Positions 22,985-28,652 of a stretch of DNA of 64,000 nt are shown here, in pieces. A model generated the notes under the pieces. That model had not been told where the DNA came from, searched no databases, and saw nothing but the letters and a program-made list of their open reading frames with translations. Source of the stretch: an uncultured Ruminococcus sp. (GTDB lineage: Bacteria > Bacillota > Clostridia > Oscillospirales > Ruminococcaceae); assembly GCA_945877315.1 (NCBI GenBank), contig CAMCRP010000005.1:1-64000 (forward strand). The letters are read 5' to 3'. Both the position numbers and the translations under genes were made by a program. Position 1 is the first letter of the stretch; each line of letters begins with the position of its first letter.

Positions 22985-24430
22985 ATGAAATCTCCAAAAA
23001 TAACGGCTGCCGTGCTTGCGGCGGTCATGTCTGCGCAGCTTCTGGGCGGCTGCTCCGATAATAAGGTAAAGCTTGATCCCGCAAATCCTACGGTGGTTTC
23101 CATATGGCATTACTATAACGGCGCACAGAAGGAAGCTTTTGATGCGCTGATGGACGAGTTTAATGCTACCGTGGGAACTGAAATGGGAATTATCGTTCAG
23201 GGCACAAGTTACAGCGATGTGGGTGCTCTGGAGGACGCAGTAAAGTCTGCCGCAGAAGAGGGCGCCGAAAAGCTCCCGTCCATATTTGCAGCATACAGTG
23301 ATATGGCATATACCATTGAAGAAAAGGGTATGCTGGCAGAGCTTGACAGCTATTTCACCAATGAGGAACTGTCCGAATATGTGGACGGATTTATTGCCGA
23401 GGGACGTTTCGGCGCAGACGGAAAGCTGATGATATTCCCCGTGGCGAAATCCACCGAGGTGTTTATCTTAAATAAGACCGATTGGGACAAATTTGCCGAA
23501 GCAACGGGCGCAGACCTTTCCGAGCTTGAAACCAAGGAAGGTCTTGTGCGTATCTCCAAGCGGTATTATGAGTGGACCGACAGCCTGACGCCGGACATTC
23601 CCGATGACGGAAAGGCATTCTACGGCAGGGACGCTATGGCAAATCTGCTGTCTGTGGGACTTATGCAGCTGGGCACGGAGATATTCGCCGCAGATAACGG
23701 AAATGTTACCATTAATGCCGATAAGGAAAATCTGCGCAAGATCTGGGACTGCTATTATGTTCCGTACATAAACGGCTGGTTCAGCTCCTACGGAAGATTT
23801 CGTTCCGACGATGTGAAAATAGGTCAGATATGTGCTCTTACAGGTTCGTCCTCGTCCGCAACATATTTCCCAAAGCAGGTTATGACCGATGAAGCAAGCT
23901 ATCCCATTGAAGCACTGACGCTGCCTGTTCCCGAATTTGAGGGCGGAAAGCATTATGCCGTACAGCAGGGCGCGGGAATGGCTGTGGCAAAAAGTACACC
24001 TTCCTGCGAGTACGCTTCTGTAGAGTTCCTGAAATGGTCCACAGAGTCGGAAAGAAACCTGAAATTCGCCTGTCTGTCGGGTTATATGCCCGTTAAAAAG
24101 GCAGCAAATGAGGAAGATCTGCTGTCGAAGGCGGTCAAGGATATGGACGCTGCCGACACTATTCCTGTTGAAGCACTGAATGTCTGCTTTGATATTGCTG
24201 CCAAGAATGAAATGTACACATATAAGGCGTTTAGCGGTGCGGGGGAGGCAAGAAATGTTCTTAATTACAGCCTTTCCGACAAGGCGGCTGCCGACTGTGA
24301 AAAGGTAAATCAGATGGTGGCGGAGGGCATGTCCCGTGCGGAGGCTGCCGCAACTCTTGATACCGATGAAAACTTTGAGGAATGGTATAACGGTTTCTGC
24401 GCTGCGCTGAATGAAGCCTGCGGGAAATGA
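22985..24430 (+). CDS. ABC-type extracellular solute-binding lipoprotein (family 1)
   Basis: A 481-residue sugar-type solute-binding lipoprotein. The signal peptide ends in lipobox LLGGC (Cys23). The mature part starts with the family pattern VSIWHYYNGAQKEAFDALMDEF and has QQGAGMAV and YASVEFLKW blocks (landmarks WHYYNGAQ, QQGAGMAV). Start at 22985 (MKSPKITAA) because the signal peptide begins there. No ABC permease or ATPase is adjacent, so it must work with a system encoded elsewhere or act as a stand-alone ligand-binding sensor. A terminator follows. Confidence 0.9.
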   Translation: MKSPKITAAVLAAVMSAQLLGGCSDNKVKLDPANPTVVSIWHYYNGAQKEAFDALMDEFNATVGTEMGIIVQGTSYSDVGALEDAVKSAAEEGAEKLPSIFAAYSDMAYTIEEKGMLAELDSYFTNEELSEYVDGFIAEGRFGADGKLMIFPVAKSTEVFILNKTDWDKFAEATGADLSELETKEGLVRISKRYYEWTDSLTPDIPDDGKAFYGRDAMANLLSVGLMQLGTEIFAADNGNVTINADKENLRKIWDCYYVPYINGWFSSYGRFRSDDVKIGQICALTGSSSSATYFPKQVMTDEASYPIEALTLPVPEFEGGKHYAVQQGAGMAVAKSTPSCEYASVEFLKWSTESERNLKFACLSGYMPVKKAANEEDLLSKAVKDMDAADTIPVEALNVCFDIAAKNEMYTYKAFSGAGEARNVLNYSLSDKAAADCEKVNQMVAEGMSRAEAAATLDTDENFEEWYNGFCAALNEACGK

Positions 24431-24449
24431 AGTTTTTTATGATATTTAC

Positions 24450-24490
24450 AAAGCCGAGCAAAATGACTGCATCGGCTTTGTGTTTTTTGT
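24450..24490 (+). terminator. Intrinsic terminator after the solute-binding protein gene
   Basis: An 8-bp stem AAAGCCGA with TCGGCTTT around a 14-nt loop, followed by GTGTTTTTTG. Confidence 0.8.
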
Positions 24491-24734
24491 AGGGCATTTC
24501 TGATAAATGACTGCTATTCATTTTAGACGAGAAATGTATATTTTCTATAATCATTGTACGGTTTGAACGTTTTTAACTGTGAGAATTGTTCAAAACGCTG
24601 AATTTTATGTTATTTAGGTAAAAAGTCATAAAAATCGTTGAATTTTTCGTGCGTATCTGCTATAATAATTTAGCAAAATGACAGATTGAAGCTCCCGGGT
24701 TTCCGATTTTTTTCAAATTTTTTTCTCTAGGGTA

Positions 24735-24763
24735 TTGACAAATGTATACTTGTGTGGTATACT
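24735..24763 (+). promoter_or_regulatory. Strong promoter of the split pyruvate formate-lyase operon
   Basis: TTGACA at 24735-24740, 17-nt spacer, TATACT at 24758-24763. Two GTATAC palindromes (24744-24749 and 24757-24762), 13 bp apart, lie within the spacer and -10. This might form an operator. Upstream, 24491-24734 is AT-rich and shows no gene. Confidence 0.85.
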
Positions 24764-24922
24764 TAAATCAGAACCAAGGGATAATCTTGGAAATATCATA
24801 TTTTCGGGACTTTGCAAGCTGCCGGACGGCCACAAGCTGTCCGCCGAACGTTTGACATACCCTGTCAGGCGTAAAAAATAAATTGCAGGAAACCAAACAG
24901 GTTTCTTGAAAGGAGTAGAAAT
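24764..24922 (+). ncRNA. Structured 5' leader of the pfl operon (candidate regulatory RNA)
   Basis: About 159 nt lie between the promoter and the core gene's ATG. Visible hairpins are CCAAG-N7-CTTGG (24774-24790), CGGAC...GTCCG in the GC-rich middle, TGACA-N5-TGTCA (24853-24867) and GAAACC-N5-GGTTTC (24889-24905). The last sits 3 nt before the AAAGGAG ribosome site (24909-24915) and could affect ribosome access. I do not recognise a named riboswitch class. Confidence 0.4.
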
Positions 24923-27022
24923 ATGACAAAGGAATTTTTTGAACAGTGGGAGGGCTTCACACCCGGTAAGTGGAGCGACGGTGAGATCAATGTAAGAGAT
25001 TTCATTCAGAGAAACTACACTCCCTATGACGGAGATGAGAGCTTCCTCGCAGGTCCTACCGACGCTACCAAGAAGCTGTGGGATGAAGTTATGGAGCTCG
25101 CTAAGAAGGAAAGAGAAGCAGGCGGCGTTCTCGATATGGACACTAAGGTCGTTTCCTCTCTCGTTTCTCACGGCGCAGGCTACATAGACCAGCCCCTTGA
25201 AAAGATTGTCGGACTTCAGACAGATAAGCCCTTTAAGAGAGCTTTAATGCCCTACGGCGGTCTGAGAATGGCTGAAAAGGCTTGCTCCGACAACGGATAT
25301 AAGGTTGACCCCGAAATCAGCCACATTTTCACAGAATACAGAAAAACACATAACGCAGGCGTTTTTGACTGCTATACCCCCGAAATGAGAGCTTGCAGAA
25401 CCAATCACATCATCACCGGTCTTCCCGATGCTTACGGAAGAGGACGTATCATCGGCGACTACAGAAGAGTTGCTCTTTACGGTGTTGACAAGCTTATCGA
25501 AGACAAGGAAGATCAGAAGGCGTTCTACACATGTCCTATGACTGAGGAGAAGATCCGCGCAAGAGAAGAGATCGCCGAGCAGATCAGAGCTCTCCAGAAT
25601 CTGAAGAAGATGGCTGAGATCTACGGCTGTGATATCTCCAAGCCCGCTACAACCGCTAGAGAAGCAGTTCAGGCTGTATACTTCGGTTACCTGGGTGCTG
25701 TTAAGGACCAGAACGGTGCTGCTATGTCCCTCGGACGTACCTCCACATTCCTTGACATCTACTTTGAGAGAGATTTCAAGCTGGGCAGAATTACCGAAGT
25801 TGAAGCTCAGGAGATCATCGACCATTTCATCATGAAGCTTCGTCTTGTTCGTTTCGCAAGAACTCCCGAGTACAATGCACTGTTCTCCGGTGACCCCCAG
25901 TGGGTAACAGAGTCCCTCGGCGGTATCGGCATCGACGGCAGACACATGGTAACAAAGAACAGCTTCCGTTACCTGCATACTATCGAAAACCTCGGCACAT
26001 CTCCCGAGCCTAACCTGACAGTTCTCTGGTCTCCCAGACTGCCCGCAGGTTGGAAGAAGTACTGTGCTAAGATCTCCATCATTTCCTCTTCTATCCAGTA
26101 CGAGAATGATGAAGTTATGAGAGTTACTCACGGCGACGACTACGCTATCGCTTGCTGCGTATCATCTATGAGAGTCGGCAAGGAAATGCAGTTCTTCGGC
26201 GCAAGAGCTAACCTGGCTAAGTGCCTGCTGTATGCTATCAACGGCGGTGTTGATGAGATCAGCGGTGTACAGGTAGGCGCAAAGTACCGTCCTATCACCT
26301 CCGAGTACCTCGATTACGATGAGGTAATGGAGAGATACGATGATATGATGACATGGCTCGCAGAAATTTATGTAAACACTTTGAATATCATTCACTATAT
26401 GCACGACAAGTACTGCTACGAGAGCCTCCAGATGGCTCTTCACGACAGAGAGGTAAAGAGATACTTCGCTACAGGTATCGCAGGCCTTTCTGTTGTTGCA
26501 GACTCCCTCTCCGCTATTAAGTACGCTAAGGTTAAGGTAGTTCGTAAGGACATCGAGATCAAGAACAAGAAGGGCGAGGTAGTTTCCGTTGCTAAGAACG
26601 TTGCTGTTGACTACATTACAGAGGGCGATTTCCCGAAGTACGGCAACAACGACGACAGAGTTGACGAGATCGCAGTTGATATCGTTAAGAGATTCATGCA
26701 AAAGGTTCGTCAGCAGCAGTGCTACAGACACGGCGTTCCTACTACATCTATCCTTACTATCACTTCCAACGTTGTTTACGGTAAGAATACCGGTTCTACT
26801 CCCGACGGACGTAAGCTCGGTGTGCCTCTGGCTCCCGGTGCTAACCCCATGCACGGACGTGATACTCACGGTGCTTCCGCTTCGCTTTCCTCCGTTTCCA
26901 AGCTTCCTTTCACAGAGGCTCAGGACGGTATCTCCAATACCTTCTCCATTATCCCCGATGCTCTCGGTAAGGACGACAAGGTATTCATGGGCGATCTGGA
27001 CATTGAATCTCTCGCTAAGTAA
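24923..27022 (+). CDS. pflB: Pyruvate formate-lyase core subunit, lacking the glycyl-radical domain
   Basis: Formate C-acetyltransferase converts pyruvate and CoA to acetyl-CoA and formate. This 699-residue protein aligns with PFL from its N-terminus ([18 protein letters not shown]) through the active-site pair Cys411-Cys412 in YAIACCVSS and on to KDGISNTF-like sequence (observed [10 protein letters not shown]). It then stops at DLDIESLAK, just where other PFLs continue into the ~70-residue glycyl-radical domain (E. coli PFL is about 760 residues). The missing RVSGYA segment is encoded by the next gene. The two must form one active site. AAAGGAG precedes ATG 24923. No pflA activase gene is seen in the window. 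Confidence 0.95.
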
Positions 27023-27048
27023 AAGCTGCGGCTTGACCGCATAAACCA

Positions 27049-27080
27049 TTACTTCCTGCGGTATCTGCCGCAGGAGGTAA
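27049..27080 (+). promoter_or_regulatory. Strong intercistronic hairpin between the two PFL subunit genes
   Basis: TCCTGCGG pairs with CCGCAGGA around a 6-nt loop, extended outward by TTAC with GTAA and a T-G pair. No T-run follows, so it is more likely an mRNA-processing or stability element or weak attenuator than a terminator. A second small hairpin CCGAA-GTAA-TTCGG lies at 27089-27102, just before the AGAAGGAGG site of the next gene. Confidence 0.6.
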
Positions 27081-27126
27081 TACAAAGTCCGAAGTAATTC
27101 GGCAATTTTAGAAGGAGGATATTATT

Positions 27127-27372
27127 ATGGCAAATGTTAATACACAGCAGGTAGATAACCTGGTTGCTCTTCTCGATGGCTATTCCGCAAAGGGCGGTCA
27201 TCACCTCAACGTAAACGTGTTCACTAAGGATACTCTTCTGGACGCTCAGAAGCACCCCGAGAACTATCCTCAGCTGACTATCCGTGTTTCCGGTTATGCT
27301 GTAAACTTCATTAAGCTGACCAAGGAACAGCAGGATGACGTTATCTCCAGAACATTCCACAATGCTCTGTAA
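27127..27372 (+). CDS. Stand-alone glycyl-radical subunit of pyruvate formate-lyase
   Basis: An 81-residue protein equal to the C-terminal domain of PFL. It carries [27 protein letters not shown], the glycyl-radical motif RVSGYAVNF with Gly56, and the C-terminal [18 protein letters not shown]. GrcA/YfiD of E. coli is a related spare part, but there the full-length PFL retains its own domain. Here the adjacent core has none, so this is an obligatory subunit rather than only a repair factor. A perfect AGAAGGAGG gives strong independent initiation, which would permit excess subunit. The radical Gly would be made by an activase not present in the window. Confidence 0.93.
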
Positions 27373-27375
27373 TTT

Positions 27376-28020
27376 ATGAGTAAGAAACAGTTAATATCAT
27401 TTCTGTCTGACTCAGTTTTAGCCGGACTGATGATCGGTGTCGGGGGAGTGGTTAGCCTCTCCTCCGACAACCGATACATCGGTGCGGTTCTCTTTTCGTT
27501 GGGAATTTTGACAATAATTCACTTCAAGTTCGGACTTTATACGGGTAAGGTTGGGAATATTGCAAGAAACGGTGTCAAATTTATTCCCGAGGTGGCTGTC
27601 ACGCTTCTCGGAAACGGCATAGGTACCTTCCTTGCGGCAGTTCTTATCCGACTGACAAGAATTGCACCGCCGCTTGTTGAAAAGGCGCAGGCAACGGTTC
27701 AGACGAAAACCTCGGACAGCATTGTAAGTATGTTCATTCTCGGAATTTTCTGCGGTATGCTTATGTTCATTGCCGTGGACGGTTACCGCAAATGCAAGGA
27801 AAATTCCGATTCTACGGCTGGCTTTATGATAGTTGCGTTCCCTGTTATCGTGTTTATTATCAGCGGCTTCAACCATTGTATTGCCGATATGTTTTACATA
27901 TTCTTAGCAGGGGAGTACACTCTTTCCGCTTTGGGATATTTTGTAACGGTCGTCCTCGGAAATGCCGTGGGCGGTATGCTTATCCCTACATTTAAAAAGG
28001 TTTCGGAGAATAAGCTTTGA
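27376..28020 (+). CDS. Formate/nitrite transporter (FNT/FocA)-like channel
   Basis: A 214-residue membrane protein with about six hydrophobic helices. The region SGFNHCIADMFYI corresponds to the conserved SGFEHSVANMF-type motif of FNT channels, and LGNAVGG near the C-terminus is the usual LGN.xGG motif. It is shorter than the ~260-280 residues typical of FocA. It starts 3 nt after the glycyl-radical subunit stop, so it is in the same operon and most likely exports the formate made by PFL. A strong terminator follows. Confidence 0.85.
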   Translation: MSKKQLISFLSDSVLAGLMIGVGGVVSLSSDNRYIGAVLFSLGILTIIHFKFGLYTGKVGNIARNGVKFIPEVAVTLLGNGIGTFLAAVLIRLTRIAPPLVEKAQATVQTKTSDSIVSMFILGIFCGMLMFIAVDGYRKCKENSDSTAGFMIVAFPVIVFIISGFNHCIADMFYIFLAGEYTLSALGYFVTVVLGNAVGGMLIPTFKKVSENKL

Positions 28021-28027
28021 TGAAACA

Positions 28028-28068
28028 AAACGGATATGCTGAATTTTTCTCAGCATATCCGTTTTTTT
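28028..28068. terminator. Bidirectional terminator after the pfl operon
   Basis: A 15-bp perfect stem (AAACGGATATGCTGA with TCAGCATATCCGTTT), T-run after it and A-run before it. It ends both the pfl operon and the convergent HD-domain operon. Confidence 0.9.
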
Positions 28069-28070
28069 AT

Positions 28071-28652
28071 TTATTTGCCTTCAAGGAAATATGTCGCTTC
28101 CATATCCGCAACGCTCAACGCAAAGGCAAGGGGGAACATTTCAAAGGCTTTTCCCACATTATTTGGTTCCTCATTTCCCGAAAATCCCATATGATATCGT
28201 ATGGCAAAGGCTTCTTCACGAGTGAGCCGCATATATCCCGAAATGATATAGACCGACTTTTCACCGTGGCCGTAGGGGAGCCTGTCGTCAATGGTGTAGT
28301 AGGGAACCTTTTCCCAGACACCTTGCTCATTTTTGGAATTTCGGTAATCCGTCTTATAGAAATTTACCTTGCAGATGTCGTGGAGAAGGGCTGTCAGCGC
28401 AACACTTTCCGCCGACGGGTTAAGCTTATATGTATTCTTTACACGCTCTCTTTCAACATAGTCCGCAAGACAGTGGTAAACATTCAGACTATGCTCCAGC
28501 AAGCCGCCCTCATATGCCCCGTGATAGCGGGTGCTTGCAGGTGCTGTGAAGAAGTCGCTCTTTGACGAGGTAAGGTATTCAAGCAGCTTATCGGCTCCTT
28601 CACGGGTGATGTTTTTCTGATAGATCTCAATAAATTCGTCTTTTAAGCTCAT
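28071..28652 (-). CDS. HD-domain phosphohydrolase-like protein
   Basis: A 193-residue HD-superfamily protein. Metal ligands are suggested by GGLLEHSLNVY (His), LLHDICKV (the HD pair) and later GHGEKSVY and IRYHMGFSG. Similar proteins occur in clostridia as putative hydrolases of nucleotides or nucleic acids; the substrate is unknown. GGAGG precedes ATG 28652. It starts 1 nt after the beta-mannosidase stop and is the last gene of that operon. Confidence 0.85.
   Translation of the reverse strand: MSLKDEFIEIYQKNITREGADKLLEYLTSSKSDFFTAPASTRYHGAYEGGLLEHSLNVYHCLADYVERERVKNTYKLNPSAESVALTALLHDICKVNFYKTDYRNSKNEQGVWEKVPYYTIDDRLPYGHGEKSVYIISGYMRLTREEAFAIRYHMGFSGNEEPNNVGKAFEMFPLAFALSVADMEATYFLEGK

Follow-up and report, generated by a model that had tools for sequence, protein, structure and literature searches.

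A split pyruvate formate-lyase in an uncultured Ruminococcus: a catalytic core, a separate glycyl-radical chain and a probable third component

We analyzed a 64,000-nucleotide stretch of DNA from an uncultured Ruminococcus sp. (contig CAMCRP010000005.1, positions 1 to 64,000; hereafter, the window), in which pyruvate formate-lyase (PFL) is encoded in two pieces, a 699-residue catalytic core and an 81-residue protein, GrcA3, that carries the glycyl-radical loop. We consider it probable that the two form one enzyme with the radical supplied in trans, and that a 67-residue cysteine protein likely completes it. Genome comparisons strongly support an obligate two-chain PFL. PFL is a central, oxygen-fragile enzyme of fermenting gut bacteria, and a natural split with a separable radical subunit offers a way to test if anaerobes preserve the expensive core and renew just the damaged piece. 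If our reading holds, the oxygen-vulnerable part would likely be replaceable without remaking the whole enzyme, and the conserved third-protein family would add a new accessory component to a textbook enzyme. The small protein is already known to NCBI as GrcA3 (NF038360). In the open-licence PMC literature, mostly represented by titles and abstract openings, we found no paper announcing a natural split PFL or GrcA3, and the word GrcA3 is absent from what was searched.

All features of the locus lie on the forward strand. The core gene (24923..27022), identified as an open reading frame with profile matches, is preceded by a Shine-Dalgarno-like AAGGAG (24910..24915). Its product covers positions 4-647 of the PFL-like profile PF02901 and scores 1070.6 bits against TIGR01255, above the curated cut-off of 994.2. 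The adjacent active-site cysteines of that family are present as Cys411-Cys412 (codons 26153..26158; presumed to correspond to C418/C419 of the E. coli enzyme), but its same-chain glycyl-radical domain is not, the radical loop being a separate gene. Within the 106-position Pfam Gly_radical model, the core matches only positions 2-51 and the small protein positions 51-106; the latter match includes the predicted radical glycine, Gly56 (27292..27294), which lies within RVSGY, aligns with E. coli Gly734 and is invariant in 31/31 aligned sequences. The core ends in a C-terminal tail of the [VI]FxG[DE][LI] type (26981..27019). The GrcA3 gene (27127..27372) begins after a 104-nt spacer (27023..27126) and has its own Shine-Dalgarno sequence, AGAAGGAGG (27110..27118). 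Its product exceeds the curated cut-off of NF038360 (165.8 versus 158 bits) and falls well below that of the GrcA/YfiD family TIGR04365 (94.8 versus 170 bits). The sequence-only reading had described just this arrangement, a core with Cys411-Cys412 that stops short of the radical domain and a separate 81-residue radical protein with its own ribosome site 104 nt downstream, and the reading frames, the divided Gly_radical match and the ribosome site bear it out.

The two genes occupy different frames, each with a ribosome-site-like sequence before it. Their spacer is too short for the middle reading frame found in relatives, and holds a 15-bp hairpin (27048..27081) with no T-run after it; the stretch 27010-27140 folds with a z-score of -4.35 versus shuffles, and a similar stem occurs in the 105-nt spacer of a sister species (L189). 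The hairpin may be an mRNA stabilizing or processing element; Rfam has no match in 24400-28100. Its 3' arm contains an AGGAGG that no start codon follows. The PFL core frame of the sister species (G111:C19) contains one stop codon near residue 99, either a sequencing error or real. Directly downstream of GrcA3 lies a formate/nitrite transporter family gene (27376..28020, from profile matches), which has a BLAST match in 1 of the 63 linked named loci drawn from the best 80 relatives described below.

The window's genome is a draft of 3.30 Mb in 138 contigs, 97% complete. It contains a single PF02901 match and a single GrcA3 gene, with no orphan copy found, and a profile search of the draft contigs found no second PFL-type radical domain and no fused PFL; the core/GrcA3 pair is thus the only PFL found in this genome. 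The sole Gly_radical match off the pair's contig, on contig C30, is below cut-off and sits beside a second activase-like match; it probably belongs to an anaerobic ribonucleotide reductase. A check proposed earlier, for the activase gene pflA, located PflA on contig C66, unlinked to the pair (304.7 bits, cut-off 231.75), and a missing activase is ruled out.

We then quantified how far the split extends. Of 148 genomes from the family to which the window belongs, 24 have a split PFL. Some match to the GrcA3 model occurs in 104 of the 148; 24 are above cut-off, all in short frames (82-138 aa). Another 66 genomes, none of them among the 24, have a match of at least 100 bits in a longer frame (at least 439 aa), and no fused-type match of at least 100 bits occurs in any of the 24 split genomes, both tallies being hand counts of the search listing. 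A phylum-wide draw gave 4 of 398 genomes above the GrcA3 cut-off, the window's own included. Among named relatives, we scanned the best 80 of at least 583 confirmed stretches: in 63 of them a separate core gene precedes the small gene on the same strand, 17 lack a neighboring core, and no fusion was seen. The homologue search suggested earlier, for cores that end before the radical domain beside a small protein, therefore succeeds, and 101 distinct linked pairs were collected in total. Named carriers include Lacrimispora amygdalina, Eisenbergiella tayi, Kineothrix alysoides, Claveliimonas bilis, Parablautia intestinalis and Beduini massiliensis; Ruminococcus and Gastranaerophilales bins are further carriers, although bin names may be wrong. 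The claim that in other PFLs the two parts are one chain was consequently too strong: the split recurs across many Lachnospiraceae and Oscillospiraceae records, and NCBI had already named GrcA3. In 45 of the 63 linked named loci, the retrieved flanking sequence encodes a PflA-like protein. A second, intact PFL in the same genome had been named as grounds for abandoning the two-chain reading; the window's genome has none that we found. Claveliimonas bilis holds both kinds; its fused-type match scores 112 bits in a 756-aa frame and is the only one of at least 100 bits in the 50 genomes searched from the 63 linked named ones. The proposal that the small protein is an obligate subunit thus gains genomic support, as the window's genome and 24/24 split family genomes yielded no fused PFL and the 101 linked pairs repeat the arrangement.

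How would such an enzyme work? Within the core barrel, GrcA3 would stand in for the C-terminal domain; PflA would form the radical on Gly56 of the slotted GrcA3, and the radical would pass on to Cys412/Cys411. A fold model of a relative's pair, tethered, has a mean pLDDT of 70.6 (41-80 in the GrcA3 part), which is modest confidence, and is partly circular because AlphaFold knows E. coli PFL. In E. coli, oxygen cleaves activated PFL at Gly734 (PMC8683613). By extension, oxygen would cut GrcA3 and spare the core, into which a fresh GrcA3 could then be slotted. Oxygen-driven replacement is plausible, and is the least-supported step of the scheme.

The genes that speak to this step are additional copies of GrcA3. 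In 13/13 tested genomes with an orphan locus (17 orphans in the best 80; L053, L061, L102 and L103 were left out), a truncated core with its own adjacent GrcA3 lies elsewhere, so the orphan is a further GrcA3 copy; in a 14th genome examined (L112), the linked pair is cut by a contig end. Nine of the 17 orphans have a Crp/Fnr-type regulator no more than two genes away, on the same strand in L047, L050, L053, L060, L081 and L114 and divergently in L091, L103 and L107, whereas BLAST with two of the orphan-locus regulators found no match in the 63 linked loci. These extra genes in some relatives point toward a radical subunit made in excess or replaced. Their position near Crp/Fnr regulators and their presence on phages lead us to favor replacement by exchange over a fixed two-chain PFL, produced by neutral fission, in which both chains are remade after oxygen damage. 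We regard a fixed pair as rather unlikely. It would fit the single GrcA3 and lack of any orphan found in the window's genome, the rarity of a second GrcA3 above cut-off (5 of the 50 linked named genomes searched from the best 80) and the adjacency of core and GrcA3 in 63 of the best 80 named loci; it accounts poorly for the second or third GrcA3 genes of all 13 tested orphan-locus genomes, for the regulators (9/17 orphans versus 0/63 linked loci by BLAST) and for lone GrcA3-like genes borne by phages.

Several further observations concern these copies. Two of the Crp/Fnr-type regulators hold a cysteine cluster. In L050, two GrcA3 genes lie about 3 kb apart, and the genome's third is beside the core. 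An orphan GrcA3 is divergent from spoIIIAA (by Pfam) in L072, L098 and L105, and the gene layout of L061 is alike. GrcA3-like sequences occur on 18 viral contigs (L213-L230), near phage nrdD in L215, L217 and L221, and tblastn finds matches in 1,539 phage records, some of them labeled glycyl radical cofactor or pyruvate formate-lyase. On a 109.8-kb IMG/VR contig (L219:2944-5237), a split core that ends in SLGKDED, with no tail, accompanies GrcA3; viral contig L227 carries a fused PFL and L228 a frame of equal length.

The earlier reading of the locus missed a third component. The first hint was a set of weak GrcA3-like matches between core and GrcA3 in some genomes, from a model search. Spacers of at least 200 nt separate the two genes in 72 of 103 pairs, and a cysteine-pattern scan found that 71 of these 72 encode a protein of about 65-80 residues. 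A profile of 44 members finds the third protein in 71/71 distinct long spacers; its rows were chosen by cysteine pattern and a length limit, and those two traits are partly due to selection. The first 30 or so residues resemble the start of GrcA3 (residues ~5-33; hhalign E 4.5e-9 over 29 columns), and this GrcA3-like part stops ahead of the radical loop. At the C-terminus, a cysteine motif leads into P-[TN] and acidic residues; this end aligns with 11 full-motif core tails (E 9.1e-8, 23 columns). Across the 44 sequences, C54 is invariant, C47 is present in at least 90% and some have a third cysteine.

The third protein and a cysteine-bearing core tail show a complementary pattern across the pairs. 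In the distinct set, 26 of 29 short-spacer cores carry cysteines on their own tail, with the third protein absent from the spacer; tail cysteines were counted loosely, and 9 of these 26 tails have only a CC pair with no P-[TN] motif. The tally of 100 distinct pairs, which leaves out L068 for its run of N, gives 72 with the third protein only (including L189, whose copy is unlinked), 26 with the tail only, none with both and two with neither. The last two, L038 and L089, are draft bins whose genomes gave no full-length third-protein match. Because pair rows are related, the complementarity was also examined on the tree: among five well-supported independent contrasts, none goes the same way, three to four go opposite ways and one or two show no difference (sign test, p 0.125-0.25). 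We therefore do not treat a Fisher test on the pair counts as proof.

Genome-wide, full-length third-protein matches, defined as reaching model position 59 or beyond, occur in 18 of the 24 split family genomes versus 0 of the other 124; nine of the 18 had contributed profile rows and the other nine, the window's genome included, had not. The six split genomes without a match (G025, G137, G142, G055, G106 and G090) have core-tail cysteines. In fused genomes, profile matches never extend past the first ~33 positions and lie within the fused PFL itself. Among 41 chosen genomes, full-length matches number 0/24 where the core tail has cysteines and 0/13 where PFL is fused, none in L038 and L089, and one each in G111 and G351. 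The copy in the window's genome (G000:C47:20594-20797; 67 aa, E 3.8e-14) has GGAGG upstream and is unlinked to the core; it sits between deaminase-like and TetR-regulator-like genes, named by eye. With an E limit of 0.001, a public database yields 2,148 relatives, and the visible names among the best 120 are 'hypothetical protein'. Six members scanned have no Pfam match over cut-off, NCBIfam gave 20 partial GrcA3 matches and two stray ones for the 44 members, and sequence comparison gave no PDB match of note.

From these patterns, the third protein is likely part of PFL. We find it improbable that it is instead unrelated to PFL, for example a radical-SAM-modified precursor peptide that by chance shares the operon. 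Such a peptide would also be short, cysteine-containing and without a Pfam match over cut-off, as in the six members scanned, and 1 of the 44 members does weakly match a family of rSAM-modified Cys-rich peptides (E 0.0099, 15.8 bits, cut-off 35). However, chance sharing would hardly give a start like the PFL radical domain and an end like the split-core tail, nor confine full-length matches to split family genomes (18/24 versus 0/124) and exclude them from 24/24 genomes with core-tail cysteines.

Taken as a PFL component, the third protein combines a relative of the radical-domain start with the cysteine tail of the core, and for this reason its binding site is likely the radical-domain slot or a place next to it, where it may hold the vacant core or govern exchange or activation. 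Results with the E. coli enzyme (PMC8683613) cut both ways for the two-chain reading. An E. coli core of residues 1-695 has wild-type-level activity with YfiD once activated, but this truncated core binds YfiD and is activated poorly, residues 696-733 aiding YfiD binding. The activity is a precedent for a two-chain PFL, whereas the poor binding and activation count against one and would require the natural pair to have an additional binding feature. Through alignment, the start of the third protein corresponds to about residues 678-711 in E. coli and so shares the first part of 696-733. Weak GrcA3 binding could then be made up for by the core tail and the third protein, which would either keep the empty slot in shape or steer GrcA3 into it. 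A fuller picture, which we offer tentatively and consider less likely than not, is that many gut anaerobes share a three-part PFL. Its core would endure; its GrcA3 would be a throw-away cartridge, in some genomes supplied by extra genes near Crp/Fnr-type regulators and carried by phages; and the cysteine protein, a chimera of the first strand of the radical domain and the core tail, would plug the slot or sense oxygen so that a damaged cartridge can be swapped.

We next consider the origin of the split. A tree of 98 split cores, 40 fused cores and two PDB chains required two changes of split/fused label, while a tree constrained to hold the 98 split rows together had the better likelihood (p-AU 0.58); a single origin is not rejected. 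The tail pattern [VI]FxG[DE][LI] (VFxGDL type) is present in 97/102 split cores versus 0/40 fused junctions. One fused row, L131 (G122), was placed among the split cores in the first tree; its junction reads LGKDSDIFIGCDNC... ahead of the radical domain, with a tail-like IFIG and cysteines, and it is possibly a re-fusion or an intermediate. The two PDB chains, 38la and 38lb, are core-only and lie near or inside the split group. A natural protein near-identical to 38lb (P0121) is 718 residues long and ends without a radical domain but with tail cysteines; its named relatives, among the matches listed, are Olsenella and Thermophilibacter. The PDB sequence search turned up neither a GrcA3-like chain of ~80 residues nor the third protein.

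Two other explanations would remove the two-chain enzyme altogether. NCBI calls the family an autonomous glycyl radical cofactor and the window's genome is a 138-contig draft, so GrcA3 might merely be a spare part, in the style of E. coli GrcA/YfiD, for a full-length PFL that the assembly missed. This is very improbable: the genome is 97% complete with one PF02901 match, core and GrcA3 are separate in 63/63 linked named loci from the best 80, a fused-type match appears in 0/24 split family genomes and the ~60-residue N-terminus of YfiD is absent. A GrcA/YfiD-type protein serves a full-length PFL in the same cell, and no fused PFL was found in this draft genome. A frameshift, from assembly or sequencing, that split a single gene, a danger the sequence-only reading had itself raised, is scarcely credible, for despite the two frames and the draft assembly the second gene has its own ribosome site and a 104-nt spacer, the sister species has the same split with a 105-nt spacer, and a separate core recurs in 63 of the best 80 named loci, which speaks against a chance frameshift.

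The two-chain PFL shares its chemistry residues with both E. coli PflB and GrcA/YfiD (PDB 1h16, 6owr). PMC8683613 describes YfiD residues 61-127 as having the same fold as PFL 693-759, and the natural split point falls close to the artificial E. coli cut at 695 given there. The systems differ in how the parts are used: E. coli makes PFL in full length and calls on YfiD once oxygen has damaged it, while no full-length PFL was found in the window's genome; its 81-residue radical chain is without YfiD's ~60-residue disordered N-terminus; and the split cores, unlike E. coli PflB, bear their own conserved tail. The protein is a member of NCBIfam NF038360, a name that implies a repair cofactor, whereas the genomics argues for a PFL radical subunit. 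PDB entries 38la and 38lb (formate acetyltransferase) resemble the split cores as core-only chains without a radical domain, the end of 38la being either natural or a construct. For the third protein, the nearest parallels are the small subunits of benzylsuccinate synthase and 4-hydroxyphenylacetate decarboxylase, likewise small cysteine-containing accessory chains of glycyl radical enzymes. Those subunits bind [4Fe-4S] clusters, whereas in the third protein one cysteine is invariant and another nearly so; unlike them, it is kin to the radical domain itself.
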